A DNA stretch of 64,000 bases from Methylobacterium durans (GTDB taxonomy: Bacteria; Pseudomonadota; Alphaproteobacteria; Rhizobiales; Beijerinckiaceae). Below are positions 28,746 through 64,000 of the stretch, one piece after another (position 1 is the first letter of the stretch; the number at the start of each line of letters is the position of its first letter). The notes below the pieces were generated by a model, which did not search any database, was not told the origin of the DNA, and saw only the letters and a list, made by a program, of their open reading frames with translations. The stretch spans positions 5,441,501-5,505,500 of the forward strand of contig NZ_CP029550.1 of the NCBI RefSeq assembly GCF_003173715.1, given 5' to 3'. The position numbers and the translations under genes were made by a program.

Positions 28746-28752
28746 ACGCCAC

Positions 28753-28866
28753 ACCTCTCCCGTTCGGGAGAGGTCGAGTCGGCGTCGGCCGACCGGGTGA
28801 GGGGTGCGCGTTATCCGGAGAGGTCGCACCCCTCACCCTGTCCCTCTCCCGAACGGGAGAGGGGAC
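28753..28866. repeat. Palindromic intergenic repeat, copy A
   Basis: It begins CCTCTCCCGTTCGGGAGAGG, has GGGTGAGGGGTGCG in the middle paired with CGCACCCCTCACCC, and ends CTCTCCCGAACGGGAGAG. Nested hairpins cover its full length. It lies between the convergent SDR and ABC-F genes and could act as a bidirectional terminator or a REP-like element. Confidence 0.85.
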
Positions 28867-28873
28867 CTGTGCC

Positions 28874-38548: not shown

Positions 38549-38580
38549 CTCATGCGTGCGCGGCGTCCGGCCGCTCACCC

Positions 38581-38698
38581 CATCTCTCCCGTCCGGGAGA
38601 GGTCGAGTCCGCGGAATGCGAACCGGGTGAGGGGTGCGACCTCTCCGGAAAGACCTGGATCCCTCCCCCTGTCCCTCTCCCGAACGGGAAAGGGGATC
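38581..38698. repeat. Palindromic intergenic repeat, copy B1
   Basis: It begins CTCTCCCGTCCGGGAGAGG, has GGGTGAGGGGTGCGACCTCT in the middle and ends CTCTCCCGAACGGG. It shares the insert AAAGACCTGGATCCCTCCCC with copy D2. Confidence 0.85.
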
Positions 38699-38765
38699 CG
38701 CGCCCGGCCCAGAACCGTGGCGATGTCCTCACTTCCGTCGCGCTCCGCAGGACGAGCCGGGCGCC

Positions 38766-38880
38766 CACCTCTCCCGTCCGGAAGGTCTGAGTCGGCGTCA
38801 GCCGACCGGGTGAGGGGTGCGACCATTCCGGAGAGGTCGCATCCCTCACCCCAACCCTCTCCCGAACGAGAGAGGGAGCC
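38766..38880. repeat. Palindromic intergenic repeat, copy B2
   Basis: Same layout as copy A: CCTCTCCCGTCCGG, GTCGGCGTCAGCCGACCGGG, GTGAGGGGTGCGAC, GTCGCATCCCTCACCC and CTCTCCCGAACGAGAGAG. It is in tandem with B1, 68 bp apart. Confidence 0.85.
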
Positions 38881-39042
38881 GCGCTCGCCCCTCCGCGTCG
38901 CATCATCCCGGCACCGGAACGCTTCGCTTACCTCCGCGGGGGGCTTGCCTAGACGCCGACGAATCCGCATGGCACGTCGGAGCGGCCAAGGTCGCGCGCC
39001 GTGGGCCGCGGTTCCCGGACCCGTCGCATACAGGAGTTCTGG

Positions 39043-48517: not shown

Positions 48518-48904
48518 GATACCCCCAAAACTGTCAGTTGTCTTATTGAGACCCGGGCGCGCGGGCGCGCAGCACGTTCAAGCATCAGCGAATGGTGGGG
48601 CAGGGGAGTCAATTCTTATCCCGGAGACTCATCCGGGACGCGATGACTTTCATCCCATAGATGCAATTATGGCATTCTTTCGTGCGGAGCTTGCCATTCT
48701 GATCGATATACTTATGATGAAAAGGAAATTGGACTGGGAAATTCAGGACGTCAGCGTCAGGATGATTTGGCAATAGCGGCCATCGGCGCGAACGTCGTGT
48801 GCCGCGCCCGCCGCACCTTCCACCTCCCTGGAAGTTGTAATTTTCGGCCGAACCGGCGGGCGGGCTCGCGGGTCGCGCGCAACGGCGAGGCCGCGCCCCA
48901 CTTC
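48518..48904. other. Intergenic, upstream of the autotransporter
   Basis: No supported gene. The part 48600-48780 is AT-richer than the surroundings and must contain the promoter of the leftward autotransporter gene. No operator recognised. Confidence 0.4.
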
Positions 48905-49012
48905 CTCCGTCAGGGAGAGGCCGAGGCCCTGTGAGCGTATCGGGCGAGGGGTGCGACATCTCCGGACAGGTCGCACCCCTCGCCCTGCCCCTCTCCCGAA
49001 CGGGAGAGGGGA
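48905..49012. repeat. Palindromic intergenic repeat, copy D1
   Basis: CTCCGTCAGGGAGAGG, GCGAGGGGTGCGAC paired with GTCGCACCCCTCGC, and CTCTCCCGAACGGGAGAG. Degenerate at its left end. Confidence 0.8.
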
Positions 49013-49076
49013 CTTGCGCCCGATGTGTTGACGTCCCCGATGTGTCGGCGTCGGGGTTGAAGGGGGCCGGCGCCCC

Positions 49077-49191
49077 ACCTCTCCCGTTCGGGAGAGGTCG
49101 AGTGCGCGTCAGCGCACCGGGTGAGGGGTGCGACCTCTCCGGAAAGACCTGGATCCCTCCCCCTGTCCCTCTCCCGAACAGGAGAGGGGAC
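49077..49191. repeat. Palindromic intergenic repeat, copy D2
   Basis: CCTCTCCCGTTCGGGAGAGG, GCGTCAGCGCACCGGGTGAG, the insert AAAGACCTGGATCCCTCCCC also seen in copy B1, and CTCTCCCGAACAGGAGAG. Confidence 0.85.
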
Positions 49192-49364
49192 CCGCGCCCG
49201 GTCCGGTCGAGATTGAAGGCTCCGCCGCGCCCCTTGCCGAGCGGAACCCGCGCGGGACGGGGCGATGAAAATCAGACTTCGGAAATTTCAGGCTTGACCG
49301 TTGCGGGATTGCATCATGCAATGTGGCCGCGATTCGCTGGGAACGCGGTTATTCGGAGGCAGGC

Positions 49365-49809: not shown

Positions 49810-50015
49810 GTCGGCTCCCCATTGTCCGAAATCAGCACCGCCCCCTTCTCGATGAGGGACGGATTGTCTTCGCGTGAGATCCGTCAGCAGTTCCGGTGCC
49901 CGGACCTGGGACAGGCGACAGCGTTCGACAGTATTGGTTAAATCGGCATCCGGAACCCCGCGGCTTCCCCGGACCTCGCCCAGGCTCTAGGCAGAGCGGG
50001 GCAGGAGAGGCTTCC

Positions 50016-51049
50016 ATGCGGATCGTCCACGACGCGCGCTCGGTTCGGCACGACCCCACGCAGTTCTTCCGGCGCGGCAGCCTGATCCCGCATCCGGAGC
50101 AGGCGGAGCGCTACCGGGTCCTGCGCGACGCCGCGGCCGGGGCGGGGCACCGGCTGACCGGGGCGGCGGATCACGGCCTCGACCCCATCCGCGCCGTGCA
50201 CGAGGCCGCGTATGTCGACTTCCTGCGCACCGCCTGGGAGCGGCGCGGGGAGATACCGGATGTCGGCGAGGAGATCCTGACGGGGCATTTCGCGCGGCCC
50301 CACATGCACCGCGCGCCGACGGGGCTGCTCGGGCGCCTCGGCCTCCACCTCGCCGACACCTCGACGCCGATCCGTGCCGGGACCTGGGAGGCGGTCTACG
50401 CCGCGGCGCAGGCGGCGATCGGCGGCGCCGATTGCGCCCTCGCCGAGGGGTGCGCCTACGCCCTGTGCCGGCCGCCGGGGCACCACGCCTACGCGGATTC
50501 CGCGGGCGGCTTCTGCTTCCTCAACAATGCGGCGATCGCCGCCGAGCGCCTGCGCGCGGCGACCGGCGGCCCCGTCGCGATCCTCGACATCGACGTGCAT
50601 CACGGCAACGGCACGCAGGGCATCTTCTACCGGCGGGCGGACGTGCTCACGCTCTCGGTCCACGCCGACCCGGCCGATTACTTCCCGTTCTTCGCCGGCT
50701 ACGCCGACGAGACCGGGGCCGGGGAGGGGGTGGGCCGCAACCGCAACCGGCCGCTCCCCACGGCTCCGGCGACCGCCCCTGGCTCGGCGCGATCGGCGCG
50801 GCGCTCGACGAGGTCGCCGCCGCGCGGCCGGCCGCGCTCGTGGTGGCGCTCGGCCTCGACGCGTCCGAGGCCGACCCGATCGGGGTGCTCCGGGTGACCG
50901 GCGCGGGCTTCGGGCAGGCGGCCCGGATGATCGCCGGGCTCGGGCTGCCGACGCTCCTCGTCCAGGAGGGCGGCTACCTCTGCGAGGCGCTGCCGCGCAA
51001 TCTCGTGGCGTTCCTCGGCGCCTTCGACGCGGGCCGCAGCGGGTTCTGA
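50016..51049 (+). pseudogene. Histone deacetylase-family hydrolase, frameshifted
   Basis: ATG 50016 (after CAGGAGAGG) starts a class II-like deacetylase/acetylpolyamine amidohydrolase. The catalytic region is CRPPGHHAYADSAGGFCFLN, then ILDIDVHHGNGTQGIFY with the zinc ligands Asp and His. The first frame runs to NRNRPLP near 50757. The rest (GSGDRPWLGAIGAALDEVAA, then GLDASEADPIGVLRV with the third ligand, and LLVQEGGYLCEALPRNL) is in another frame. One C missing in the CCCC run of GCTCCCCACGG explains the shift, so the gene may be intact in the organism. These enzymes deacetylate small amines or proteins. Confidence 0.82.
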
Positions 51050-51208
51050 GAGCTCATCCGACCGAGAAAGACAAAACTTCTCTCCATCTCGCGCCGATGG
51101 AGAAGAAACGTCTCGTTCAGAGCGGAAATTTGCAAAACACCACCATTGCTTTGGGGCCCGCCTCCACGACATGAATCCGCGTGATTGCTTGTCGGTATCG
51201 CGGCTTCC

Positions 51209-51454
51209 ATGCGCCAGATTCAGTTTGATCCCTTCGGCGAGGCGGTGACGCAGGATCTGCGCGCCGTCGGCCGCGGCGAGGCCCGGCAGGGCCCGGTCTC
51301 ACGCGCCGTGCTGCGCTCGGGCGTCGGGCTGTTCTGGATCCTGGTGATCGGGATCGTCGCCGCCCGCGTGGCCTATTTCGACCCGGACTTCGCCGAGAAG
51401 TTCGGCTCCGTCGCCGCCGTCACGACCTACATCCAGGCCCTGTTCAGCGCCTGA
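51209..51454 (+). CDS. Small single-pass membrane protein
   Basis: An 81-residue protein with a polar N-terminal half (MRQIQFDPFGEAVTQDLRAV) and one transmembrane helix (SGVGLFWILVIGIVAARVAY). No family recognised. It converges with the CoA-ligase operon on its right, so it is probably not part of it. Confidence 0.5.
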   Translation: MRQIQFDPFGEAVTQDLRAVGRGEARQGPVSRAVLRSGVGLFWILVIGIVAARVAYFDPDFAEKFGSVAAVTTYIQALFSA

Positions 51455-51503
51455 GGCGCGCCCGGGCCCCACGACGGGACCCGGGATCCGCGAGAACACC
51501 CGA

Positions 51504-52412
51504 TCACGCGTGCAGGGTGACGCCCTCCGCCGTCCGCGGCAGGCCGAACGCCGCCCGCAGCAGGTGTGGGATCTCGCCCGGCGTGTCGGCGACGGCGACG
51601 CCCGCCGCCTCCAGCGCCCGGCGCTTGCCCGCGTAGCTCCCGAAGGCGCCCGAGACGATGGCGCCGGCATGGCCCATCTTCTTGCCGGGCGGCGAGGCGC
51701 GGCCCGCGATGAAGGAGACGACGGGCTTGCTCATCCCGGCCGCGTAGGCCGCGGCCTCCTCCTCCATCGATCCGCCGATCTCCCCGACCATCACGATGGC
51801 GCGGGTGCCGGCGTCCCGGTCGAGGGCTTCGAGCGCGTCGCGGGTCGTCGTGCCGATCATCGGGTCGCCGCCGATGCCGAGGAAGGCCGACTGGCCGATC
51901 CCCGCCCGGGTCAGGTTGAGGCAGATCAGCGTGCCGAGGCTGCCGCTGCGCGAGATGACGCCGACCTCGCCCGGCTGGAAGATGTTGCCGTTGTGCCCCG
52001 GCATGATGCCGACGAAGCCCTCGCCCGGCGTCACGATCCCGGCCGTGTTCGGGCCGACGATCCGCGTGCCGCGGCGCGCGGCCGCGTGGTGGATCGCGAT
52101 CACGTCGCGGGCCGGGATGTGCTCGGTGAGGATCACGACGGTCTTCGCCCCCGCCTCGATCGCGTCGAGGGCGGCCTCGCGCGCCGCTGCCGGCGGGATG
52201 AACATCACCGCCCAGTCGAACGGCGTCTCGGCCATCGCGGCCCGGGCCGTCGCGTAGACGGGCAGGCCGAGATGGCGCTCGCCCGCCCGCTTCGGGTTGA
52301 CGCCGGCCACCACCTGCGTGCCGCAGGCGAGCATCTTCTCGGTCCAGAAGCTCCCCTGCTTGCCCGTCATGCCCTGGACGAGGACGCGGGCGTGCTGGCG
52401 ATAGATGATCAT
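51504..52412 (-). CDS. ADP-forming acyl-CoA ligase alpha subunit (SucD-like), candidate sulfoacetate-CoA ligase subunit
   Basis: A 302-residue succinyl-CoA-synthetase-alpha homologue. It has a CoA-binding Rossmann domain (RVLVQGMTGKQGSFWTEKML, and onward), GPNTAGIVTPGEGFVGIMPG and the phosphohistidine in KKMGHAGAIVSG (His248). The enzyme makes an acyl-CoA from an acid and CoA using ATP. Paralogues include malate-CoA ligase of the serine cycle, but these genes sit with an acylating aldehyde dehydrogenase and near xsc. That makes sulfoacetate a better substrate guess, as in the SauCD route described for sulfoacetate users. The start overlaps the beta-subunit stop by 4 bp. Last gene of the operon. 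Confidence 0.85.
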   Translation of the reverse strand: MIIYRQHARVLVQGMTGKQGSFWTEKMLACGTQVVAGVNPKRAGERHLGLPVYATARAAMAETPFDWAVMFIPPAAAREAALDAIEAGAKTVVILTEHIPARDVIAIHHAAARRGTRIVGPNTAGIVTPGEGFVGIMPGHNGNIFQPGEVGVISRSGSLGTLICLNLTRAGIGQSAFLGIGGDPMIGTTTRDALEALDRDAGTRAIVMVGEIGGSMEEEAAAYAAGMSKPVVSFIAGRASPPGKKMGHAGAIVSGAFGSYAGKRRALEAAGVAVADTPGEIPHLLRAAFGLPRTAEGVTLHA

Positions 52413-53536
52413 CGGGCTGCCTCCACCGCGGCCTGGACCGCGTCTTCCATCAGGTCGTAGGGCTCGACGCCGAGCCCGTCGCGCACGAGGCGCACCGCCT
52501 CGTCCTCACCGGTCCCGTGGATCGAGAAGAACACCGGCACACTCGGGGCGAGCCGCTTCCAGGCGGTCACGACGCCCTCCGCCATCACGTCGGTGCGGGC
52601 GAAGGCGCCGCAGAAATTGACGACGAGGCTCTTCACGCCGGGATTGGCCAGCACGAGGCGGAGCGCCGCCTCCGACTTCGTGTAGGCCTCGCCGCCGATC
52701 TCCAGAAAGTTGGCGGGCCGGCCGCCGCAATGGCTGATCACGTCCATCGTAGTCATGGTGAGCCCGGCCCCGTTCGCCAGCACCCCGACATTGCCGTCGA
52801 GCTGGATGAACTTGAGCCCCTGGGCGAGCCCCTCGCGCTCCAGGTCCGTCATCGGCTCGGCCGCGGCTTGGCCCGCGAGGTCCGCCTGCCGGAAGGAAGC
52901 GGCATCGTCGAGTGTGAGCTTGCAATCGAGGGCGACGACGCGCCCGTCGGCGAGGAGCGCCAGCGGATTGATCTCGATCAGCTCCGCATCGACCGCGCCG
53001 GAGATCCGGTAGAGGCCGGCGAGGATGGACGGGATCGCCTCCGCCGCGGCGCCGAGGTCGAGACCCGCGACGAGGGCGCGGGCCTCCGCCTCGCCGAAGC
53101 CCCGGTCGAGGTCGACCGCGTGGCGGCGCAGGGCCTCGGGGCGGGTCTCCGCCACCTCCTCGATGTCCATGCCCCCTTCCGTCGAGAACAGGACGAGGGG
53201 GCGGCGGCTGCCCGTGTCGTTGAGGATCGCGGCGTAGAACTCGCGGGCGATCTCGGCCCGCTCCTCCAGGAGCACCGAGCCGACGGGATGCCCGTCGATC
53301 GTCATGCCGAGGATGGCGCGGGCGGCCTCCGCCGCCTCCTCGGATGAGCGGGCGGCCCTGATGCCGCCGGCCTTGCCCCGCTTGCCCGTCGGCACCTGCG
53401 CCTTGACCATGCAGGGGCCGAGATCGGCGAAGGCGCCTTCCGCCTCCTCGGGCGTCCGGCAGAGCACCGAGCGGGGCACCGGGATTCCGGCCGGCGCGAG
53501 CACCCGCGCCTTGGCGACGTGTTCCAGGAAGTTCAT
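52409..53536 (-). CDS. ADP-forming acyl-CoA ligase beta subunit (SucC-like), candidate sulfoacetate-CoA ligase subunit
   Basis: A 375-residue ATP-grasp subunit. The N-terminal ATP-grasp region has MVKAQVPTGKRGKAGGIRAA, then TEGGMDIEEVAE and LIEINPLALLADGRVVALDC for nucleotide and metal binding. The C-terminal flavodoxin-like domain has GNVGVLANGAGLTMTTMDVI and GGRPANFLEIGGEAYT. It is shorter and more divergent at the N-terminus (MNFLEHVAKARVLAPAGIPV) than housekeeping SucC, suggesting a specialised substrate. Start and stop overlap both neighbours by 4 bp, indicating a tightly coupled operon with the aldehyde dehydrogenase. Confidence 0.85.
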   Translation of the reverse strand: MNFLEHVAKARVLAPAGIPVPRSVLCRTPEEAEGAFADLGPCMVKAQVPTGKRGKAGGIRAARSSEEAAEAARAILGMTIDGHPVGSVLLEERAEIAREFYAAILNDTGSRRPLVLFSTEGGMDIEEVAETRPEALRRHAVDLDRGFGEAEARALVAGLDLGAAAEAIPSILAGLYRISGAVDAELIEINPLALLADGRVVALDCKLTLDDAASFRQADLAGQAAAEPMTDLEREGLAQGLKFIQLDGNVGVLANGAGLTMTTMDVISHCGGRPANFLEIGGEAYTKSEAALRLVLANPGVKSLVVNFCGAFARTDVMAEGVVTAWKRLAPSVPVFFSIHGTGEDEAVRLVRDGLGVEPYDLMEDAVQAAVEAAR

Positions 53537-55029
53537 CGGCCGGCCTCCGCTGCGGTGTCCTCGACGTATCCGATCCGCTCCCAGTGCGGCCCGAACAGGT
53601 CGCGCGGGCTCGGCCGGTCCTCGGGGATCGGGGTGACGAGGTGGGTGATGTTGAGGAAGTGGCGGTAGCTCAGGTTCTCGGAGATGCTGTTCTTCTGCCA
53701 GGAGCCGCAGCCCATGCTGAGCGTGAAGCCGAGCCCCGAATTGAAGCCGCCGCCGTTGCCGAAGGTGTGGGCGAAGTTCACGAGCACCCGCACCACGTCG
53801 AGGTCGGCGGCAAGTTCCCGGGCGCGGGCCATGTCGGTGGTGTGGATGCCGCAGGAATGGCCCTTGCCCTGGTGCTCCAGGATCTCGGCCACCCGCGCCT
53901 TCGCGGCGGCGAAGTCCGCCGCCCGGTAGACGGTGAGGACGAGGGCGAGCTTCTCGCCGGAAAACGGGTGGGCGCGCCCGACCCCGTCCTCCTCCACGAG
54001 GAAGTACTTCCTGTCCGCGGCCTCCGGCGGCAGCCCGAAGGCCTCCGCGAGGACCGGGGCGTCGCGGGCGATCAGGTCGCGGTTGAGCTTGCCCTTGACC
54101 CAGAGCCGCTCGCGGATCCGCTCCTTCTCCGCCGGCGTGCAGAGATAGGCGCCGGCCCGCTCGAGCGCCGCGATCGCCTGGTCGTAGACCGCATCGACGA
54201 TGACGACGCTGTTCTCCGACGAGCAGGAGGTCGAATTGTCGAAGATCTTCGAGTCCCGGATCTTCTGCGCCGCCGCGTCGAGGTCGGCGGTCTCGTCGAT
54301 CATCACCGGCACGTTGCCGGCGCCGACGCCGATCGCGGGCGTGCCGCTCGAATAGGCGCGCCGGACGTTGTCCTGCGAGCCCGTCACCACGACGAGGTCG
54401 CAGGCTCGCATCAGGGCCTCGGTCGAGTCCTTCGTCACGGGATCGGGCAGGATCTGCACGAGATCGGCCGGCAGCCCGATCCGCTCAAGCTCCTCGCGCA
54501 TCAGGGTCACGATGCGGGCGGTGGTCCGGTAGCCCAGCGGCGAGGGGGCGATGACGATGGCGTTGCGGCCCTTGACCGCCATCATCGCCTTGTTGACCGG
54601 CGTGGCGCCGGGATTGGTCGAGGGCGTCACCGCGCCGATCACGCCCATGGGCTTGGCGTATTTCACGAGGCCCTTGGCGTGGTCCTGCTCGATGACGCCG
54701 ACGGAGCGCCCGCGCAGCAGGTCGCGGAGCGTCCCGAAGGTCTTGCGCTGCTTCTTGACGATTTTGTCGGCGACGTTGCCGAGGCCCGTATCGGCGACCG
54801 CGAGCTCGGCGAGTTCGCGGGCGTTCTCGGGCTTGTAGAGGGACCAGGCGAGCGCCCGCACCGCGGCGTCGGCCCCCTCCTGGTCGACCTCGGAAAAGAG
54901 CTTCTGAGCGGCGCGCGCCCGCCGCATCACCGCCTCGACGGGAGCGGGATCGAACGTTCTCTCCGCGGTCTTCGGGGGGATCGGCAGCGGCTCGGACCGG
55001 CCGATCGTCGGGGCGACGGCGACGGACAT
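53533..55029 (-). CDS. sauS: CoA-acylating aldehyde dehydrogenase, probable sulfoacetaldehyde dehydrogenase
   Basis: A 498-residue member of the acylating branch of the aldehyde dehydrogenase superfamily. The catalytic cysteine is Cys269 in FDNSTSCSSENSVVIV. The nucleotide region includes GVIGAVTPSTNPGATPVNKA and VVVTGSQDNVRRAYSSGTPA, and the C-terminal part has FGNGGGFNSGLGFTLSMGCG. This matches the SauS/EutE-like group. Next to a CoA ligase and an MFS importer, the expected step is reduction of sulfoacetyl-CoA to sulfoacetaldehyde, which Xsc (63.9 kb) would consume. The symbol rests on family plus context. Confidence 0.82.
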   Translation of the reverse strand: MSVAVAPTIGRSEPLPIPPKTAERTFDPAPVEAVMRRARAAQKLFSEVDQEGADAAVRALAWSLYKPENARELAELAVADTGLGNVADKIVKKQRKTFGTLRDLLRGRSVGVIEQDHAKGLVKYAKPMGVIGAVTPSTNPGATPVNKAMMAVKGRNAIVIAPSPLGYRTTARIVTLMREELERIGLPADLVQILPDPVTKDSTEALMRACDLVVVTGSQDNVRRAYSSGTPAIGVGAGNVPVMIDETADLDAAAQKIRDSKIFDNSTSCSSENSVVIVDAVYDQAIAALERAGAYLCTPAEKERIRERLWVKGKLNRDLIARDAPVLAEAFGLPPEAADRKYFLVEEDGVGRAHPFSGEKLALVLTVYRAADFAAAKARVAEILEHQGKGHSCGIHTTDMARARELAADLDVVRVLVNFAHTFGNGGGFNSGLGFTLSMGCGSWQKNSISENLSYRHFLNITHLVTPIPEDRPSPRDLFGPHWERIGYVEDTAAEAGR

Positions 55030-55095
55030 GGGCGACTCCTGGGAACGAGGGGAAAGGGTTGCGGTCGTGAGCGGGCCCCCGCGGGCCCTTCCCGG

Positions 55096-56400
55096 TCAGG
55101 CGGTGGGCCTGACCGGCACGGGACGGGCGAGGGGGGACTCCGGCTCGACGTCGTCGACGAAGGGCTCGTCCGGGCGCATCCGCAGCGCCAGGACCGCGCC
55201 GAGGAGCAGGAGGCCGAGGGAGGCCACGAAGGGCAGGTCCCAGCGGCCGGTCGCGTCGATGATGGCGCCGAAGACGACGGGCGAGATCATGCCGGCGAGC
55301 CCGAAGCCGAAGTTCATGAAGCCGCTCGCGGTGCCCGCGTGCTGGGGCGCGATGTCCATCGGCACCGCCCAGATCGGGGCGACGATCAGCTCGGCGAAGA
55401 AGAACGCGCCGCTGAGGCAGAGGGCGATGGTGACGAGGTCCGTCACGAACAGCACCGGCAGCATGAACAGGAAGGCGCCGAGGAAGCCCACCACGATGAC
55501 GCTGACGCGGGCCTTCGAGACGCTGCCCGTCCGGCGCAGGATGCGGTCGCTGACGATGCCGCCCACCGTGTCGCCGACGACGCCGGCGAAGAACACGCCC
55601 GAGGCGAAGATGGCCGACTTCTTGATGTCGAGGTTGTACTGGTGGAGGAAGTACGAGGGGATCCAGTTGAGGAACAGCCACAGGGTCCAGCCATAGCAGA
55701 AGTCGGTCAGCGTCACCGGCATCATCCGGCGGAGGAGGCGGCGCCACGGCACGGCCTTGCGCTCGGAGGCGATCCTTCTCGCTGGCAGCACGTCGAGCTC
55801 GGCCTGGGTGATGTGCTTGTGGTCGCGCGGATCGTCCCGGAAGTAGAACCACCACAGGGCGACCCAGGCGAAGCTGATCAGGCCGATGATGATGAAGGAA
55901 TCGCGCCAGGAGAGCGCGACGATCAGGAAGGCGATGATCGGCGGCGTCACCGCGTTGCCGAAGCGGGCGAAGGCGTGGGTGATCCCCTGCGCGAAGCCGC
56001 GCCGGTCGGCCGCCATCCAGTTGGAGAGGGCGCGCGTCGCGGTCGGGAAGGCCGAGCCCTCGCCGATGCCGAGGAGGAAGCGGGCCGCGACGAGGGACAT
56101 CGCGCCCTCGACGAAGCCGATCATCACGGTCGCGGCCGACCAGATCGCGCCGCAGATCAGCAGGGTCAGCCGGGGCCCGAGGCGGTCGCCGAGCCAGCCG
56201 CCGGCGATCTGGAAGAAGGCGTAGGGGTAGGCGAAGGCCGAGAAGGCGAGGCCGAGCTCGGTGTTGGTGAGGCCGAGTTCCTTCTGCATCGCGGGCGCGG
56301 CGGTGCCGATGTTCACCCGGTCGATGTAGGTGACCAGGTACATCAGGCAGATGATGAACAGGACGCGGTCCGTGGCCTTGAAACGACTGAGCCCAAGCAT
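55096..56400 (-). CDS. MFS anion importer (SauU-like), first gene of the ligase operon
   Basis: A 434-residue major-facilitator protein of the anion:cation symporter group, with 12 predicted helices. It begins MLGLSRFKATDRVLFIICLM. The signature YIDRVNIGTAAPAMQKELGL in helix 1 and GDRLGPRLTLLICGAIWSA after helix 2 are typical of transporters for organic acid anions. SauU of Cupriavidus, a proposed sulfoacetate importer, belongs to the same superfamily. It is transcribed first in the operon 56400 to 51504, divergent from a LysR gene. ATG 56400 is chosen by family N-terminus and the ribosome binding site AGGAGGGCAGC; the frame is open to 56520. Confidence 0.87.
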   Translation of the reverse strand: MLGLSRFKATDRVLFIICLMYLVTYIDRVNIGTAAPAMQKELGLTNTELGLAFSAFAYPYAFFQIAGGWLGDRLGPRLTLLICGAIWSAATVMIGFVEGAMSLVAARFLLGIGEGSAFPTATRALSNWMAADRRGFAQGITHAFARFGNAVTPPIIAFLIVALSWRDSFIIIGLISFAWVALWWFYFRDDPRDHKHITQAELDVLPARRIASERKAVPWRRLLRRMMPVTLTDFCYGWTLWLFLNWIPSYFLHQYNLDIKKSAIFASGVFFAGVVGDTVGGIVSDRILRRTGSVSKARVSVIVVGFLGAFLFMLPVLFVTDLVTIALCLSGAFFFAELIVAPIWAVPMDIAPQHAGTASGFMNFGFGLAGMISPVVFGAIIDATGRWDLPFVASLGLLLLGAVLALRMRPDEPFVDDVEPESPLARPVPVRPTA

Positions 56401-56638
56401 GCTGCCCTCCTGACAGGGTCCGCGAAGTCGAGCTGGGTCGGCGCACAAGATCAGGCACCTTCCGAGACTGTCCTCGACGGCCGTTCGGCGTTCCTCAACC
56501 TTCGCGGCGCGGTCTTCCATCAGGTCTTGGATGCCTGAATCGGGGGTGGGACCGTGCCACGGGATGACACGCTAGCCATTGCCAACGGTCACGGGAAATT
56601 TATTGTCTGCATCGCGATCATTCAGGAAATTGATCGGA
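56401..56638. promoter_or_regulatory. Divergent control region of the ligase operon and LysR gene
   Basis: 238 bp between the importer start (leftward) and the LysR start (rightward). The right part, 56575-56640, is AT-richer (GAAATTTATTGTCTGCATCG). LysR proteins usually bind such a shared region and activate the divergent operon in response to the substrate. I cannot name the exact T-N11-A site with confidence. Confidence 0.55.
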
Positions 56639-57502
56639 ATGATTCCGGATCTTGAGATTCCGCTGCTGCGCACCTTCGTGGCGGTCAACGACACCGGGAG
56701 CATCACCCTGGCGGGCAAGCAGGTCGGCCGGACCCAGCCCGCGGTGACCCACCAGATGCATCGCCTGGAGAAGGCGCTCGGCAAGCCGCTCTTCGAGGGC
56801 GACCGCCGCCACCTCACGCTCACCCGCGAGGGCGAGATGCTGCTCGCCTATGCCCGCACCCTCCTCGGCCTCAACGACGAGATCCGCGAACGCTTCCAGG
56901 CGCCCGACATCGCGGGCCATGTCCGCCTCGGCGTGCCGGATCTCTACGCGGCCTTCCTGCTGCCCGCCGTGCTCGGCGGCTTCGCCCGCGCCTATCCGCA
57001 GATCGAGATCGAGTTGCGCTGCTCGCGCAGCATCCACCTCCACGCGGCCCTGGAGCGGGAGGAGATCGACATCGCCCTGATGACGCGCCAGCCCGAATTC
57101 GAGGGCGGCACCACGGTCCGGGAGGAGCCGCTGATCTGGGTCGCGGCCCGCGACTGCACGATCAGCGCGAGCGAGCCGCTGCCGCTGGCGCTCCTGCCCG
57201 CGGGCAGCCTCTACCGCCAGCGGGCGCTGGACGCGCTCGGCCATGTGGGGCGGTCCTGGACCGTGACCGCCGTGAGCGACAGCATCGCCGGCCTGCAGGC
57301 GGCGGTCCATGCGGGGCTCGCGGTCTCGATCTTCCCGCTCTGCGCGCTCAGCCCGCATGTCCGCCGCCTCGGGCGGGCCGACGGCCTGCCGGACCTGCCG
57401 GCCCTGGAGATCGTACTGCAACGCAAACCGAGCGGCATCGCGCCGGCGGCCGAGCATCTCGCCCAGTACATCGTGGCCGAACTCAGCAACGCGCCGTCCT
57501 GA
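56639..57502 (+). CDS. LysR-family regulator, probable activator of the divergent operon
   Basis: A 287-residue protein. The N-terminal winged helix is LEIPLLRTFVAVNDTGSITL, then AGKQVGRTQPAVTHQMHRLE and KALGKPLFEGDRRHLTLTRE. The inducer-binding domain starts near HVRLGVPDLYAAFLLPAVLG. It lies back to back with the importer-dehydrogenase-ligase operon, the classic arrangement in which LysR activates the divergent genes with their substrate as inducer. ATG 56639 matches the family start (MIPDLEIPLLRTF). The sulfoacetate operons known to me use other regulators, so this would be a variant. Confidence 0.9.
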   Translation: MIPDLEIPLLRTFVAVNDTGSITLAGKQVGRTQPAVTHQMHRLEKALGKPLFEGDRRHLTLTREGEMLLAYARTLLGLNDEIRERFQAPDIAGHVRLGVPDLYAAFLLPAVLGGFARAYPQIEIELRCSRSIHLHAALEREEIDIALMTRQPEFEGGTTVREEPLIWVAARDCTISASEPLPLALLPAGSLYRQRALDALGHVGRSWTVTAVSDSIAGLQAAVHAGLAVSIFPLCALSPHVRRLGRADGLPDLPALEIVLQRKPSGIAPAAEHLAQYIVAELSNAPS

Positions 57503-57600
57503 CATTGCTGCCATGCAGCGTCGTCGGCCGGATATTTTTGCACTGCACAAGAGGCTGTGATAATTCGAGGGCGTCCCGCAGCCTCGATTTCCGCGCCCCT

Positions 57601-57813
57601 ATGAACGACCTCGACCGCCTGCAGAAGATCCTTCCCTTCGCCGTGGCGCTCTACCTCGCGACGAGCCTGGCGCAGCTTCAAGCGACGCAGGCCACCGCCC
57701 CGCATGCGAGCTCGGGGGTCTCGGTGGAGCGGGTGGCCGCGAGCGTGAAGTGGCACATGCTCCAGATCGCCCGCAACGAGCAGAACGAGGCGCTGGTCTT
57801 CCCCGGCAACTGA
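57601..57813 (+). CDS. Small hypothetical protein
   Basis: A 70-residue protein (MNDLDRLQKILPFAVALYLA, then a weakly hydrophobic helix, and SSGVSVERVAASVKWHMLQI). It may have one amphipathic or membrane-associated helix near residues 10-25. No family recognised. It lies between the LysR gene and the GMC dehydrogenase. Confidence 0.45.
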   Translation: MNDLDRLQKILPFAVALYLATSLAQLQATQATAPHASSGVSVERVAASVKWHMLQIARNEQNEALVFPGN

Positions 57814-58011
57814 GCGTCCCGCACCCGGCCCGCAGACAGAACGTAGCCGGAGCCCGACCCCTCCGGAACGCGGACGGCCCGCGCGATCGGCCGCCTCGCG
57901 CATTGACACATGCGCCATTTCCTCATCTAATCGAACGCAACGTACCGTTTTTCGAGATTTAATCGCAAAACGGCTGCGACGGGGAACCGCGATCGGGCGA
58001 GGGCGTCGGCG

Positions 58012-59762
58012 ATGGAGCGCGACCACTTCGACTACGTCGTCGTCGGGGGCGGCACCGCCGGATGCGTTCTCGCCAACCGCCTCTCCGCGGAGGGCCGGCA
58101 CCGCGTGCTCCTGCTGGAGGCGGGCCCGCGCGACCGCTCGCCCTGGATCCATCTTCCCATCGGCTACGGGAAGACGATGTTCCACAAGACCCTGAACTGG
58201 GGTTTCTACACCGAGCCCGAGCCGACCATGAAGGATCGGCGGATCTACTGGCCGCGCGGGCGCACGCTCGGCGGGTCGAGCTCCATCAACGGCCTGATCT
58301 ACATCCGCGGGCAGGCCGCGGATTACGATCACTGGGCCGCCCTCGGCAATCCGGGCTGGTCGTGGAAGGACGTCCTGCCCTACTTCATCCGCTCCGAGCA
58401 CAACAGCCGCGGTCCGAGCCCGGCCCACGGTGCGGAGGGGCCGCTCTGGTGCTCCGACATCGGGCCCCCCACCCGCTGATCGAGGCCATCATCGCGGGTG
58501 CGCAGGATCTCGGCGTCCCCCGCACCGGGGATTTCAACGGCGGCGACCAGGAAGGCGTCGGCTACTACCAGCTCTTCACCCGGCGCGGCTGGCGCTGCAG
58601 CACGGCGGTGGCCTATCTGCGCCCGGCCGCCCGACGCCCGAACCTGCGGGTCGAGGTGGAGGCCCACGCGACGGACCTGATCCTCGACGGGCGACGCGCC
58701 GCCGGCATCCGCTACCGGCAGGGCGGGGCGATCCGCGAGGCGCGGGCCGCCCGCGCGGTGATCCTCGCCGCCGGCGCCCTGCAGAGCCCGCAGCTCCTGC
58801 TCCTCTCCGGCATCGGTCCGCCGGACGAACTCGCCCGCCACGGCATCCCGGTCCGGCACGCCCTGCCGGGCGTCGGGCAGAACCTGCAGGACCATCTCCA
58901 GGTCCGGCTGATGTACCGGGTGGCAAGGGCGATCACCACGAACGACGACCTCGCCACGCTGCGGGGCCGGGCCCGCATCGGCCTACAATGGCTCCTCTCC
59001 CGGAGCGGCCCCCTCGCCGTCGGGATCAACCAGGGCGGCCTGTTCACCCGCGTCATGCCGGGCGCGGGCGGCCCCGACATCCAGTTCCACTTCGCGACGC
59101 TCTCGGCCGATCTCGCCGGCGCCAAGCCCCATCCCTGGTCCGGCTGCACCTTCTCGGTCTGCCAGCTCCGGCCGGAATCGCGCGGCAGCGTCACCTTGCG
59201 CAGCGCCGACCCGTTCGCGGCGCCGGTGATGCGGGCGAACTACCTCACCACCGAGACCGACCGGGCCTGCACCGTCGAAGGCATCAAGTTCGCCCGGCGC
59301 CTCGCCGCCACGCGGGCGCTGAGGGACCTTCTCGCGGAAGAGCACAAGCCCGGCCCCGCGGTCGCGGGCGACGCGGCGCTGCTCGACTTCGCCCGGGAGG
59401 CCGGCGCCACGATCTTCCACCCGGCCGGCACTTGCCGGATGGGCGACGACCCGATGGCGGTGACGGATGCCCGGCTGCGGGTGCACGGTCTCGACGGGCT
59501 GCGGGTCGTCGACTGCTCGATCATGCCGACCCTCATCTCCGGCAACACCAGCGCCCCGGTGGTGATGATCGCCGAGAAGGCCTCCGACATGATCCTGGCG
59601 GAGGCGCGGGACGAGGCTATCCGGGGGACGGATCACCGCGTCCGTTCGGGAGCGGTCGAGGGCGCGTCAGCGCACCGGGTGAGGGATCCAGCGTCATCCG
59701 GACCAGTCGCACCCCTCACCCCGCCCCTCTCCCGAACGGGAGAGGGAGCCCGGTGCGGATAA
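58012..59762 (+). pseudogene. GMC-family dehydrogenase (candidate isethionate dehydrogenase), frameshifted
   Basis: A choline-dehydrogenase-like flavoenzyme. The FAD motif is YVVVGGGTAGCVLANRLS, the GMC signature 1 is GGSSSINGLIYIRGQAADYD, signature 2 is AGALQSPQLLLLSGIGPPDE, and the active-site end is FHPAGTCRMGDD then ISGNTSAPVVMIAEKASDMI. The first 150 codons end in DIGPPTR at 58479; the rest is in another frame. One C missing from the C6 run at 58465-58470 explains this (GPPHPLIEAII). IseJ, the isethionate dehydrogenase known to form sulfoacetaldehyde, is of this family. The last 42 codons run into a palindromic repeat, a likely replaced C-terminus. Confidence 0.82.
59641..59750. repeat. 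Palindromic intergenic repeat, copy E (overlaps a gene end)
   Basis: GTTCGGGAGCGGTCGAGG, GCGTCAGCGCACCGGGTGAG, AGTCGCACCCCTCACCCC and CTCTCCCGAACGGGAGAG. The reading frame of the GMC dehydrogenase continues through it to 59762, so this copy encodes the end of a protein. Confidence 0.82.
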
Positions 59763-59850
59763 CCACCCGCTGCCTCCGCCGGCACGCCCCGGCGCGGAGG
59801 GAGCGGGGGCACGTCGACGTAATCCGAGCGGGTCGATCAGGGAGACGGGC

Positions 59851-61200
59851 ATGGCGGAGATCGGGAGAGGCACCGGGGAGGCCGGGCGGCCGGGCGGCCT
59901 CCGGCGGGTCGTCGCGGCGGCGCTGATCGGCGCGACGATCGAGTGGTATGACTTCTTCCTCTATGGGGTCGTGGCCGGCATCGTCCTGAACAAGCTCTAT
60001 TTCCCGGCGAGCGACCCCCTCGTCTCGACGCTTCTGGCCTACGCGACCTTCGCCGTCGGCTTCGTGGCGCGCCCCCTCGGCGGCATCGTGTTCGGGCATT
60101 TCGGCGACCGGATCGGCCGCAAGAGCATGCTGGTCATCACCCTGATGCTGATGGGCGTGGCGACCTTCCTGATCGGCCTCGTGCCGACCTACGCGCAGAT
60201 CGGGGTGGCCGCACCCGTGCTCCTGCTGGTCCTGCGCGTCGTCCAGGGCATCGGCCTCGGGGGCGAGTGGGGCGGGGCGGTGCTGATGGCTTTCGAGTAC
60301 GCGCCGCCGGAGCGCCGGGGGCTCTACGCCAGCATCCCGCAGATCGGCCTCGCCCTCGGCCTCTGCCTCGCCTCGGGCGTCGTCGCGCTGCTCTCCTACA
60401 GCTTGAGCGAGGAGCAGTTCCTGGCCTACGGCTGGCGGCTCGCCTTCCTGCTCAGCGTCGCCCTCGTCGCCGTCGGCGCCTATATCCGCCTCAACGTGAT
60501 GGAGACGCCGGAATTCGCGGCCGTGAAGGAGGAGAACCGCGAGGCCGCGATCCCCTTCGTCGCGATGATCCGCGGCTACCCGAAGAACGTCCTCGCCGGC
60601 ATGGGCGCGCGCACTGTCGACGGCGTCCTGTTCAACATCTTCGCGGTCTTCTCGATCGGCTACCTGACCCAGACCCTGCACGTGCCGCGCACGCAAGCGC
60701 TGCTCGGGGTCGCGGTCGCCGCGATCGTCCTGTGCGGGACGATCCCCCTGTTCGGCTGGCTCTCGGACCGCCTCGGGCGCACGCGGGTCTACGCCTGGGG
60801 CTCGCTCGCCACGGGGTTCTCCGCCTTCCCGGCCTTCTGGGTCTTCCTGACCTTCCCGGAGAGCATTGCGGCGATCTGGCTCGCCCTGATCGTGCCCTTC
60901 GGCATCCTCTATGCTTCGGTCTACGGGCCGGAGGCGGCCCTGTTCTCGGAGCTGTTCCCGGCGCGGGTGCGCTACACGGGGATCTCGTTCGTCTACCAAT
61001 TCTCCGGCATCTTCGCGAGCGGGCTCACGCCGATCGTCGCCACCGCGCTCCTGCAGGTCTCGGGGGCGGACCGGCCCTGGCTGGTCTGCGCCTACTGCGC
61101 GCTGGCCGGCCTGATCAGCGCGGGCTCCGCGATCTGGATCGGCCGGGCCGGGCGGCGGGAAGCGGAGGCGGCGCCGGCCGGCAGGACCCTGCCGGCCTGA
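59851..61200 (+). CDS. MFS transporter of the metabolite:proton symporter (MHS) type, candidate isethionate importer
   Basis: A 449-residue, 12-helix transporter. The family signature is AALIGATIEWYDFFLYGVVA at helix 1 and GHFGDRIGRKSMLVITLMLM between helices 2 and 3. GLGGEWGGAVLMAFEYAPPE and RGLYASIPQIGLALG complete the MHS pattern. Members import small acids such as alpha-ketoglutarate, shikimate and proline. Placed between a GMC dehydrogenase and a YeiH-type exporter, and near xsc, isethionate (an alcohol sulfonate) is a reasonable substrate, like the MFS protein of the iseUJKR clusters. The start follows CAGGGAGACGGGC. Confidence 0.85.
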   Translation: MAEIGRGTGEAGRPGGLRRVVAAALIGATIEWYDFFLYGVVAGIVLNKLYFPASDPLVSTLLAYATFAVGFVARPLGGIVFGHFGDRIGRKSMLVITLMLMGVATFLIGLVPTYAQIGVAAPVLLLVLRVVQGIGLGGEWGGAVLMAFEYAPPERRGLYASIPQIGLALGLCLASGVVALLSYSLSEEQFLAYGWRLAFLLSVALVAVGAYIRLNVMETPEFAAVKEENREAAIPFVAMIRGYPKNVLAGMGARTVDGVLFNIFAVFSIGYLTQTLHVPRTQALLGVAVAAIVLCGTIPLFGWLSDRLGRTRVYAWGSLATGFSAFPAFWVFLTFPESIAAIWLALIVPFGILYASVYGPEAALFSELFPARVRYTGISFVYQFSGIFASGLTPIVATALLQVSGADRPWLVCAYCALAGLISAGSAIWIGRAGRREAEAAPAGRTLPA

Positions 61201-61208
61201 GGCGTCGG

Positions 61209-62312
61209 GTGTCGGAAGCCAAGGGGAGCGGATCGTTGCTGCAGGACAACAGGCCGGTGCGGGCGCCCTCGGGCCTGCAGCGCTGGCGCGCCCGCCTCGG
61301 CGAGCTCGGCCCGGGCGTCGGGCTCTGCGCCGCCGTCACCGCACTCTCCATCGCCCTGCAGGAGGGCGAGGAGCGGGCCTTCGGGCATCCCTACGTGGAG
61401 GCCCTGGTCATCGCGATTCTCACCGGCATGGCGCTGCGCACCCTCTGGGAGCCGAGCCCGCGCTGGCGGCCGGGCATCGCCTTCAGCGCCAAGCAGCTCC
61501 TCGAGGTGGCGGTCATGCTGCTCGGCGCCTCGATCAGCCTCGGAGCGATCATCGCCTCGGGCCCGCTCCTGTTGAGCGCGATCATCGCCGCCGTCTTCGT
61601 AACCATCGGAGCGAGCTACGGAATCAGCCGCCTGCTCGGCCTGCCGCCGCGAATCTCGATCCTGATCGCCTGCGGCAACGCGATCTGCGGCAACTCGGCG
61701 ATCGCCGCGGTGGCGCCGGTGATCGGGGCCGACAGCGACGACGTCGCCTCCTCGATCTCGTTCACGGCGATCCTCGGCGTCGTCATGGTGCTCGGCCTGC
61801 CGCTGCTGATCCCGTTCCTCGGGCTCAGCGCCACCCAGTACGGGGTCCTGGCGGGGCTCACCGTCTACGCGGTGCCGCAGGTGCTGGCGGCCACCGTCCC
61901 GGCCGGGCTCGTCAGCACGCAGATCGGCACGCTGGTCAAGCTCGTGCGGGTGCTGATGCTCGGCCCCGTCGTCGTCACCCTGTCGCTGATGGCCGCCCGC
62001 TTCCGGGACGCGGGCCCGGCGGAAACCGGCCGGCGCCGTTTCGACCTGTTCAAGCTGGTCCCCTGGTTCATCCTCGGCTTCCTCGGGCTCGCGGGGCTGC
62101 GCTCCCTCGGCCTCGTGCCGGACGCCGCGATCTGGCCGATCACCCGGACGGCGGGCCTCCTCACCGTGGTCTCGATGGCGGCGCTGGGCCTCGGCGTCGA
62201 CGTGCGGGTGATCGGCCGCGTCGGCGGCCGGGTGACGGCCGCCGTGACCCTCTCCCTCGCCCTGCTCCTGCTGATCAGCCTCGGGCTGATCCACGGGCTG
62301 CGGCTGGGCTGA
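61209..62312 (+). CDS. YeiH/PSE-family putative sulfate or sulfite exporter
   Basis: A 367-residue membrane protein with about 10 helices, of the putative sulfate exporter family (UPF0324, YeiH). Signatures: EVAVMLLGASISLGAIIASG, then ILIACGNAICGNSAIAAVAP and TAILGVVMVLGLPLLIPFLG. The most likely task is export of sulfite or sulfate released by Xsc. It begins at GTG 61209, 8 bp after the MFS stop, so the two form one operon. A later TTG start is possible; the first 20 residues are polar and not conserved in pattern. Confidence 0.85.
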   Translation: MSEAKGSGSLLQDNRPVRAPSGLQRWRARLGELGPGVGLCAAVTALSIALQEGEERAFGHPYVEALVIAILTGMALRTLWEPSPRWRPGIAFSAKQLLEVAVMLLGASISLGAIIASGPLLLSAIIAAVFVTIGASYGISRLLGLPPRISILIACGNAICGNSAIAAVAPVIGADSDDVASSISFTAILGVVMVLGLPLLIPFLGLSATQYGVLAGLTVYAVPQVLAATVPAGLVSTQIGTLVKLVRVLMLGPVVVTLSLMAARFRDAGPAETGRRRFDLFKLVPWFILGFLGLAGLRSLGLVPDAAIWPITRTAGLLTVVSMAALGLGVDVRVIGRVGGRVTAAVTLSLALLLLISLGLIHGLRLG

Positions 62313-62387
62313 GGGGCCGAGCGCCCACCTCTCCCGGGCGTCGGCACGCGGGCGGGCGCAAGGGGGCGGCCTTGATCGGGCGCGGGT

Positions 62388-62502
62388 CCCCTCTCCCGTT
62401 CGGGAGAGGGACAGGGTGAGGGACCTGGGTCTTTCCGGAGAGGTCGCACCCCTCACCCGGTCGGCTGACGCCGACTCGACCTCTTCCGGACGGGAGAGGT
62501 GG
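62388..62502. repeat. Palindromic intergenic repeat, copy F (reverse orientation)
   Basis: CCTCTCCCGTTCGGGAGAGG, then GGTCGCACCCCTCACCCGGT, CGGCTGACGCCGACTCGACC and CGGACGGGAGAGG. It is the reverse complement of the usual layout and lies between the convergent exporter gene and xsc. Confidence 0.82.
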
Positions 62503-62521
62503 GCGCGACGGACCGCCGAAC

Positions 62522-62556
62522 GAAAACGGGCCCCCTCCCGGCCGGGAGGGGGCCCG
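62522..62556 (-). terminator. Intrinsic terminator of xsc
   Basis: CGGGCCCCCTCCCGG and its exact complement CCGGGAGGGGGCCCG form a perfect 30-bp palindrome (62527-62556). Read leftward it is followed by TTTT (62526-62523). It lies 25 bp after the xsc stop. Confidence 0.8.
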
Positions 62557-62580
62557 CGATCGCGTCCTGGCCTCGGCCCG

Positions 62581-64000
62581 TCACATCGGCGGGCGCTGCG
62601 GGCGCATGTCGGCGGCCTCGATCCCGGCGACCCGCACCGGCTTCTTCATCGCGTCCCGGCGGAAGGGCTCGCCGAGTTCCTGGTTGAGGAGGACCTCGAT
62701 GAAGGTCGTGACGCCCTGCGCCTGCGCCTCGCCGGCCTGCCGGATGGCGTGGGTCAGCTCGGCCGTCGTCTCGACCCGCACGCCCTTGAAGCCGCAGCCC
62801 TCCGCGATCTTAGCGTAGCTCAATTTCGGGTCGAGCTCGGTGCCGACGAAGTTGTTGTCGTACCAGAGGGTCGTGTTCCGCTTCTCCGCCCCCCACTGGT
62901 AATTGCGGAAGATCACCATCGTGATGGCGGGCCATTCCGCGCGGCCGATCGAGGTCATCTCGTTCATCGAGATGCCGAAGGCGCCGTCGCCGGCGAAGCC
63001 GAAGACGGGGGTGTCCGGGCAGCCGATCTTGGCGCCGACGATCGCCGGGAAGCCGTAGCCGCAGGGGCCGAACATGCCGGGCGCGAGGTATTTCCGGCCG
63101 CTCTCAAAGGTCGGGTAGGCGTTGCCGATCGCGCAATTGTTGCCGATGTCGGTGGAGAGGATCGCCTCCCGCGGCAGGCCGGCCTGGATCGCCCGCCACG
63201 CCTGGCGCGGGGACATCCGCTCGCCGTCCCGCTCCCGCGCCTCGACGTTCCAGCGCGTGCCCGGATCGTCGTCCTCGTGGTCCATCGAGGAGAGGGTCTG
63301 GAGCCAGGCCGACTTGGTCTGGTGGATCAGCGCCCTGCGCTCGGCCCGGCCGGCATCGCCGGCCTTGGCCGAGAGCTGCTCCAGGAGCTGGCGGGCCACC
63401 TGCTTGGCGTCGCCGCAGATGCCCACCGTGATCGGCTTCGTCAGCCCGATCCGGTCCGGGTTGATGTCAACCTGGATGATCCGGGCGCCCTTGGGCCAGT
63501 AATCGATCCCGTAGCCGGGCAGGGTCGAGAACGGGTTGAGCCGGGTGCCGAGCGCCAGCACCACGTCGGCCTTGGCGATCAGCTCCATCGCGGCCTTCGA
63601 GCCGTTGTAGCCGAGGGGGCCGACGGCCAGCGGGTGGCTGCCGGGGAAGGCGTCGTTGTGCTGGTAGCCGGAGCAGACGGGGGCGTCGAGACGCTCGGCG
63701 AGCGCGGCCGACTCGGCCACGGCGTCGCCGATCACGACGCCCGCCCCGTTCAGGATCACCGGGAACTTCGCCTCGGAGAGGAGCTCGGCGGCCTCGGCGA
63801 TGGCGGCGCGCCCGCCGCCCGGGCGCTCCAGGCGCACGATCTGGGGCAGCGCGATGTCGATCTCGTGGGTCCAGAAGTCGCGCGGCACATTGATCTGCGC
63901 GGGCGCGCAGCCGCGCCACGCCTTCTCGATCACCCGGTTGAGGACCTCGGCGATGCGGACGGGATCGCGCACCTCCTCCTGGTAGCAGACCATGTCCTTG
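62581..64000 (-). CDS. xsc: Sulfoacetaldehyde acetyltransferase, C-terminal part (cut by window end)
   Basis: The last 472 or so codons of a thiamine-diphosphate enzyme of roughly 600 residues; the 5' end lies beyond 64000. Xsc converts sulfoacetaldehyde and phosphate into acetyl phosphate and sulfite. The visible part starts KDMVCYQEEVRDPVRIAEVL. It has the central domain (DAPVCSGYQHNDAFPGSHPL) and the thiamine motif GDGAFGISMNEMTSIGRAEW onward to IFRNYQWGAEKRNTTLWYDN. The Xsc-specific end is KKPVRVAGIEAADMRPQ. These features separate it from acetolactate synthase. It converges with the exporter operon, and a strong terminator follows. A phosphotransacetylase gene, usual next to xsc, would be outside the window. 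Confidence 0.95.
   Translation of the reverse strand, partial: KDMVCYQEEVRDPVRIAEVLNRVIEKAWRGCAPAQINVPRDFWTHEIDIALPQIVRLERPGGGRAAIAEAAELLSEAKFPVILNGAGVVIGDAVAESAALAERLDAPVCSGYQHNDAFPGSHPLAVGPLGYNGSKAAMELIAKADVVLALGTRLNPFSTLPGYGIDYWPKGARIIQVDINPDRIGLTKPITVGICGDAKQVARQLLEQLSAKAGDAGRAERRALIHQTKSAWLQTLSSMDHEDDDPGTRWNVEARERDGERMSPRQAWRAIQAGLPREAILSTDIGNNCAIGNAYPTFESGRKYLAPGMFGPCGYGFPAIVGAKIGCPDTPVFGFAGDGAFGISMNEMTSIGRAEWPAITMVIFRNYQWGAEKRNTTLWYDNNFVGTELDPKLSYAKIAEGCGFKGVRVETTAELTHAIRQAGEAQAQGVTTFIEVLLNQELGEPFRRDAMKKPVRVAGIEAADMRPQRPPM

Follow-up and report, generated by a model that had tools for sequence, protein, structure and literature searches.

A probable sulfoacetate catabolic locus in Methylobacterium, with a candidate isethionate branch and a second sau-xsc cluster on the same chromosome

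Introduction

Which sulfonates might a Methylobacterium mineralise, and through which enzymes? The question is raised by a stretch of Methylobacterium durans DNA of 64,000 nucleotides (the window; bases 5441501-5505500 of a single-contig genome of 6.79 Mb, here G000). Its last part, from position 51504 onwards, holds genes for an importer, a CoA-acylating aldehyde dehydrogenase (SauS), a two-subunit ADP-forming acid-CoA ligase (SauCD) and sulfoacetaldehyde acetyltransferase (Xsc). An original prediction, made from the letters of the window, read this part as a locus in which a sulfoacetate branch and an isethionate branch converge on a single Xsc. Both sulfonates are naturally occurring compounds of sulfur and carbon. 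Our analysis indicates that it is very probably a C2-sulfonate catabolic locus with a sulfoacetate route via SauCD, SauS and Xsc. Family membership, gene order, co-occurrence and a separate ligase clade were seen by sequence comparison, and from them we infer substrates, direction, regulation and transport. By the ligase beta subunit and by a GMC-type flavoprotein dehydrogenase encoded nearby, the nearest named relatives are Methylobacterium species.

In the proposed pathway, sulfoacetate would be imported by SauU and converted by SauCD, with ATP and CoA, to sulfoacetyl-CoA in an ADP-forming reaction with a phospho-histidine mechanism. SauS would then reduce sulfoacetyl-CoA to sulfoacetaldehyde, which Xsc would split with phosphate into sulfite and acetyl phosphate, and a neighbouring phosphate acetyltransferase (Pta) would turn the latter into acetyl-CoA. 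A YeiH-type protein may export sulfite or sulfate, and SorAB, encoded at a second cluster, may oxidise sulfite. A LysR-type regulator most likely controls the sau genes and an IclR-type regulator most likely controls xsc and pta. In relatives with an intact GMC gene, isethionate would join the pathway at sulfoacetaldehyde through the GMC dehydrogenase and an MHS-type importer.

Results and discussion

Identity of the ligase

The sau genes lie on the minus strand. The sauU-like MFS importer gene (55096..56520; TIGR00893 250 bits against a cut-off of 395, and PF07690) probably starts near 56400, judging from the upstream alignment. It is followed by sauS (53533..55029), by sauC for the beta, ATP-grasp subunit of the ligase (52409..53536; PF08442, PF00549 and its tree position) and by sauD for the alpha subunit of this proposed sulfoacetate-CoA ligase (51504..52412). 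The reading frames and strands listed in the original prediction are present as described, and so is the LysR gene divergent from the sau genes. The 4-bp overlaps claimed for the operon exist between sauS and sauC (53533-53536) and between sauC and sauD (52409-52412), but 66 bp separate the MFS gene from sauS.

A two-subunit ligase of the SucCD type is indicated by the preserved GHAGA (phospho-histidine) and GEIGGS motifs in the alpha subunit and EINPL in the beta subunit. The window SauC is 38-39% identical to the proteins encoded by two SucC genes and a single malate-CoA ligase beta subunit gene, mtkA, all of which lie elsewhere in the genome. In a 90-row ligase tree (80 named SauC loci, L195, L136, L137, L218, the window and five references; 89 of the 90 rows different), a branch supported at 100/100 parts the 85 SauC rows from the five SucC/MtkA rows; the Rhodococcus row L137 has a long branch and is unsurely placed. 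Housekeeping SucCD was rejected for the window ligase because its beta subunit falls below the SucC cut-off (NF001913, 355 bits against 370) and lies on the opposite side of this branch. The alpha subunit, which was also aligned, taken alone is just above PRK05678 (339 bits, cut-off 336), yet below TIGR01019 (336 bits, cut-off 353). MtkAB was rejected as well, with 263 bits for the window beta subunit against the malate-CoA ligase model NF010647 (cut-off 604), while the genome's own MtkA scores 764. The ligase phylogeny, named beforehand as a refuting test, therefore placed the protein within neither SucCD nor MtkAB. By sequence, this SucCD-like ligase is clearly separate from both the SucC proteins and the malate-CoA ligase of the same genome. 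The two SucC genes (L201 and L202, at about 2.25 and 2.71 Mb of G000) encode an identical protein.

The separation is also visible in the alignment. In the SauC clade, NFCGAFARTD replaces the NIFGGIVRCD or NIFAGINRCD of the SucC/MtkA rows, and FFSIHGTG replaces their VVRLEGNN or VVRLAGTN. Most of these motif positions are kept in at least 75 of the 85 rows, and the SauC motifs are absent from the SucC/MtkA rows. In SucC-type ligases succinate binds in the C-terminal domain of the beta subunit, and we presume that the SauC-specific motifs touch this acid site. For the catalytic motifs GHAGA, GEIGGS and EINPL, the roles of His246, Glu208 and Glu197 are taken from the available part of PMC10342173.

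SauS, Xsc and their co-occurrence

SauS belongs to the NCBIfam equivalog NF047625 (788 bits, cut-off 600). The xsc gene (62581..64000, minus strand) is truncated by the window end and continues to window-equivalent 64359; the full protein of 592 amino acids scores 982 bits against TIGR03457, and the part inside the window 760 (cut-off 676). As had been claimed, xsc runs on the opposite strand towards the rightward genes and has a terminator of its own, a terminator-like hairpin 3' of the gene on the minus strand (62526..62557, read from 62557 to 62526) with a 14-pair stem, a T-rich tail and a fold z-score of -3.74. The number of terminator-like sites in 51000-64000 (2 found, 3.6 expected) is not above chance; the xsc stem itself is. 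Beyond the window, an IclR regulator gene (window-equivalents 64588-65349) directly follows xsc, and after it comes a gene for a PRK08190/PRK11890-type Pta (65379-66353), whose product would convert acetyl phosphate into acetyl-CoA.

Gene order in other genomes agrees with that in the window. The 80 named SauC loci are the best among 118 confirmed. In 78 of them sauS lies immediately before sauC, and in 79 sauD lies immediately after it; the three misses (L039 and L084 for SauS, L087 for SauD) are loci cut by contig ends. Xsc at 40% identity or more occurs within the DNA examined at 42 of the 80 loci, and at 25 of the 45 for which at least 21 kb was examined. Of 99 relatives, 17 have SauS and 22 have Xsc above the respective cut-off, and 15 have both (Fisher test 9e-11, a test that ignores relatedness among genomes). 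Within the genus, 7 of 59 genomes have SauS above its cut-off, and exactly these have Xsc above its own; the two genes are 3-11 kb apart as read by eye. Of 60 listed plasmid records, five (H3, H4, H6, H7 and H59) were examined, and in plasmid clusters of Azospirillum, Rhodococcus and Indioceanicola, genes for a SauCD-like ligase, an aldehyde dehydrogenase, Xsc and Pta occur together.

Some of the counts speak against coupling SauCD to Xsc. Where at least 21 kb was examined, 20 of 45 loci show no Xsc. At three of these, all in Methylobacterium (L016, L013 and L017, from the same organisms as genomes G004, G024 and G045, respectively), xsc lies 9-11 kb from sauS and thus beyond the flank; the other 17 were not followed. 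Genomes G069 and G088 lack an Xsc above the cut-off despite having SauS, and the same-genus genome G014 has a SauS-like protein below the cut-off (403 bits against 600) and no Xsc. On balance, the curated models, the ligase tree, gene order in relatives and co-occurrence bear out the sulfoacetate branch of the original prediction.

Xsc acts on the C2 aldehyde made by SauS, the two proteins track each other across genomes, and SauS passes a curated sulfoacetaldehyde model. These points count against the idea that the ligase-dehydrogenase pair acts on some other acid, for instance 3-sulfopropionate, and that Xsc serves taurine or isethionate only. We consider this idea very unlikely, even though the substrate here is assigned by sequence and, according to the accessible text of PMC12890257, HpfX and HpfYZ, which act in this way, are of the same enzyme types.

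The candidate isethionate branch

Rightward of the LysR gene, the plus strand carries a gene for a GMC flavoprotein dehydrogenase, a candidate isethionate dehydrogenase resembling IseJ (58012..59762; PF00732 and PF05199), and one for an MHS-type MFS importer, its partner and a candidate isethionate importer (59851..61200; TIGR00883 413 bits, below the cut-off of 443). They are followed by the gene for a YeiH/PF03601-type membrane protein, a candidate sulfite or sulfate exporter (61209..62312, probably with a GTG start; PF03601 216 bits, above the Pfam cut-off; TIGR00698 135 bits, below the cut-off of 232.6). Thus, of the three rightward genes in the original prediction, the MHS and YeiH-type genes stand, but the GMC gene is not one open frame; its two domains fall in two frames, which change near 58464 within a run of C.

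In relatives the gene is intact. The two pieces lie in a single frame in L195 (G021), L009, L010 and P0121, and the GMC frame is open in six same-genus genomes; the C-terminal piece matches an M. durans GMC protein at 97% identity. No other close GMC protein was found in the genome, where the next matches reach only 29-33% identity, so that with the broken frame the isethionate branch would be lost in this assembly.

Context in other genomes links the GMC gene to xsc. In 12 of the 22 Xsc genomes a GMC homologue is found no more than 10 kb from xsc (distances read by eye); two of the 12, G075 and G098, have no SauS above the cut-off. All 7 genus genomes with SauS and Xsc, out of 59, also encode a GMC protein that matches the query P0129 at 78-100% identity (P0129 comes from G032, matched at 100%). 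At an E-value of 1e-150, six of the other genus genomes have GMC homologues at 48-49% identity and the remaining 46 have none. In six same-genus genomes, as in the window, the GMC gene has an importer gene next to it and xsc nearby. A set of GMC, MHS and IclR genes also occurs in P. phymatum and S. meliloti, with no xsc or sau match among the open reading frames compared; identities to the P. phymatum and S. meliloti proteins are 63.5 and 57.6% for GMC, 68.4 and 66.5% for MHS, and 40.3 and 39.4% for IclR. In NT-25 (H7), the GMC gene adjoins TRAP and GntR genes, not an MHS gene.

Besides the broken frame, two results tell against an isethionate function. A class-wide GMC search matched 79 of 240 genomes, and at 18 of the best 20 places other than our own there is no Xsc at 40% identity or more within about 8 kb. 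At the remaining two, such an Xsc and sau genes are nearby; an MHS gene is present at one of the 20, and identities are mostly 50-58%. In Cupriavidus campinensis, a GMC gene of the same clade adjoins a choline-sulfatase gene, with no MHS match.

Might the GMC-MHS pair then handle choline or another alcohol and be a mere neighbour, leaving the sulfoacetate branch untouched? The general similarity of the GMC protein to choline dehydrogenase (PRK02106), the choline-sulfatase neighbour in C. campinensis and the 18 places away from xsc would all fit. BetA itself, the choline dehydrogenase, was rejected: the intact homologues P0121 and P0129 score 496 and 502 bits against the equivalog TIGR01810, whose cut-off is 732 and which gives 1036 for an E. 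coli BetA control. Moreover, a close GMC protein occurs in exactly those genus genomes that hold Xsc, and 20 of the 24 members of the GMC clade lie near sau genes, a biased share as the rows were mostly drawn from sau loci. The tree was a quick build without bootstrap, with identical rows for L052 and L175, and the sau-linked GMC protein of L181 falls outside the clade. We consider a choline or other alcohol function unlikely. Instead, sequence and context make it likely that the pair feeds isethionate into the sulfoacetaldehyde pool in relatives with an intact gene. The isethionate branch, for which genomic context speaks but which has a broken gene here and an Xsc near only 2 of the 20 class-wide places, is weaker than the sulfoacetate branch.

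A second sau-xsc cluster

The locus is not single-copy, and the claim of one Xsc fails: the genome has two Xsc proteins above the cut-off and a second sau-xsc cluster about 0.99 Mb away on the same chromosome (copy 2, locus L007; the window cluster is copy 1). Copy 2 comprises YeiH, SauD, SauC, SauS and SauU genes, a divergent LysR gene, an opposed xsc, and IclR and Pta genes, without the GMC and MHS genes. Of the 99 relatives searched, only this genome gave two SauS matches above the cut-off. Beside the YeiH gene of copy 2 is a SorA gene (L007 1564-3135; G000 about 6479563-6481134) that belongs to NF052245 (680 bits, cut-off 600; closest PDB entry 2blf) and is accompanied by a gene for a small SorB-like protein with a CxxCH motif. 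SorA homologues with 67-76% identity are also found beside YeiH genes in L011, L012, L013, L015 and L016. An IS110-type transposase gene near copy 2 (L007 17707-18768) hints at possible mobility of this cluster.

Three shared tracts of about 3.4, 1.4 and 2.5 kb take in the larger part of the enzyme genes; the LysR, exporter and Pta genes, by contrast, are strongly different over most of their length. The first tract (51568..54954, 3387 bp) has no mismatch, the second (55227..56670) a single one at 56515, and between them lies an island of about 76 mismatches. The third (62813..64000 inside the window, extending to window-equivalent 65333) is identical within the window and has one run-length difference near 64445. 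Synonymous divergence (dS) between the copies is 0.49 for LysR, 0.70 for YeiH and 0.74 for Pta, as against 0 for SauC, 0.005 for IclR and 0.03-0.05 for SauD, SauS, SauU and Xsc, the ends of which lie outside the tracts. LysR and YeiH of copy 1 are nearer to those of G021 (93.1 and 88.7% identity) than to those of copy 2 (89.2 and 80.1%).

This mosaic suggests two old copies, most of whose enzyme genes have undergone recent gene conversion. Put more fully, recent gene conversion between clusters about 1 Mb apart would have homogenised most of sauC, sauD, sauS, sauU, xsc and iclR, and most of LysR, exporter and Pta would have diverged, LysR and the exporter to a greater extent than they differ from their counterparts in G021, a neighbouring species. 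With the side branches differing as well (GMC-MHS in one copy, SorAB in the other), the genome may hold one pathway in concerted evolution whose control and export circuits are wired differently in the two copies, a reading that we hold tentatively and rate at close to an even chance.

It is also quite possible, though we put the chance somewhat below even, that the GMC frameshift and the identical tracts are effects of assembly, that is, of run-length errors and copy-to-copy polishing; this concerns only those two features. The GMC frame change sits in a run of C, and the sole difference within the 2.5-kb tract is one of run length. The histone-deacetylase-like gene adjoining sauD (49896-51049) is also split into two frames here, and its pieces share a frame in L195, L009 and L010, so that sequencing error is a serious possibility for the GMC frameshift. 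However, the tract borders are abrupt, with strongly divergent sequence beyond them, which simple repeat collapse would not yield, and the mismatch island separates the first two.

Copy 2 also bears on the direction of the pathway. SauSCD might run oxidatively: GMC would make sulfoacetaldehyde from isethionate, and part of it would go on to sulfoacetate with one ATP gained, or sulfoacetaldehyde would be a two-way hub. ADP-forming ligases are near-reversible, and all 7 SauS-bearing genomes among the 59 of the genus have a GMC gene at the same locus as SauS. A precedent from anaerobes, where SqwD and SqwKL make sulfoacetate with ATP formation, is given in the available text of PMC12890257. Nevertheless, copy 2 has sau and xsc genes without a GMC gene, so the sau genes appear independent of isethionate input, and Xsc occurs at 42 of the 80 SauC loci, as against GMC (at least 55% identity) at only 20. 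An importer-type MFS gene, presumed to work inwards, also heads the sau operon. An oxidative direction is thus improbable in our view, and we retain the degradative direction from sulfoacetate to Xsc.

Relation to known systems

The sau cluster of Cupriavidus necator H16, reportedly described by Weinitschke in 2010, is said to encode a single AMP-forming ligase, SauT, and a divergent regulator. It shares with the window SauS, an MFS importer, a divergent regulator and sulfoacetaldehyde as the product, but the window has the two-subunit SauCD where H16 reportedly has SauT, together with Pta, IclR and the GMC-MHS pair nearby. Compared with the AMP-forming SauT, an ADP-forming ligase should save one high-energy phosphate. 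In C. necator, iseJ and iseU reportedly likewise feed sulfoacetaldehyde.

The sauST genes and the MFS importer SauU are also named in the available part of PMC12625764. The original prediction pointed to the replacement of the Cupriavidus SauT by an ADP-forming ligase, which is not in itself novel: as far as the accessible text of PMC12890257 goes, ADP-forming SauCD with SauS is described for Bilophila wadsworthia, and that of PMC12625764 predicts sauSCD in the genome of OTU3, a sponge-associated bacterium with xsc and pta as well. The routes differ from ours in their surroundings. In B. wadsworthia, according to the available parts of these sources, sulfoacetaldehyde goes to isethionate and on to glycyl-radical cleavage (PMC12890257), with a TTT importer (PMC12625764), whereas here the exit is Xsc and the importer is of the MFS type. 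OTU3 likewise has a TTT importer, and its description in the available part of PMC12625764 contains no isethionate branch. The Ruegeria pomeroyi genes iseJ, iseKLM and iseR, in the accessible text of PMC4334477, similarly provide a dehydrogenase, an importer and a regulator feeding sulfoacetaldehyde, but with a TRAP importer there and an MHS importer here; the likeness is one of gene roles.

The arrangement that the original prediction regarded as undescribed recurs in Methylobacterium and beyond. The locus varies on these systems by combining SauCD with an MFS importer and Xsc exit, with a likely isethionate branch, and by being duplicated; the underlying chemistry is known. In the literature searched we found no report of a Methylobacterium sulfoacetaldehyde acetyltransferase or of sulfoacetate use in the genus (for sulfoacetate judged by titles), and the locus points to sulfonate mineralisation in Methylobacterium. 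Many SauC proteins bear the source name succinate--CoA ligase, and the SauC motifs could help to correct such annotations if the activity were proved.

Further features of the locus

The LysR-type regulator gene (56579..57502, plus strand; PF00126 and PF03466) probably starts at the ATG at 56639, which is kept in 13 of 13 aligned rows. Its 5' leader (56600-56660) is strongly conserved across these 13 rows, of which L196 and L016 come from the same organism and the window and L007 are nearly identical, and it has a GATCA...TTGATC repeat near the start. The conserved leader could be an operator or a ribosome-binding region.

A repeat of about 130 bases occurs in the window at 28747-28873, 38579-38887, 48892-49203, 59634-59752 and 62374-62514, with 77-89% identity to the copy beside xsc, and looks like a dispersed repeat element.

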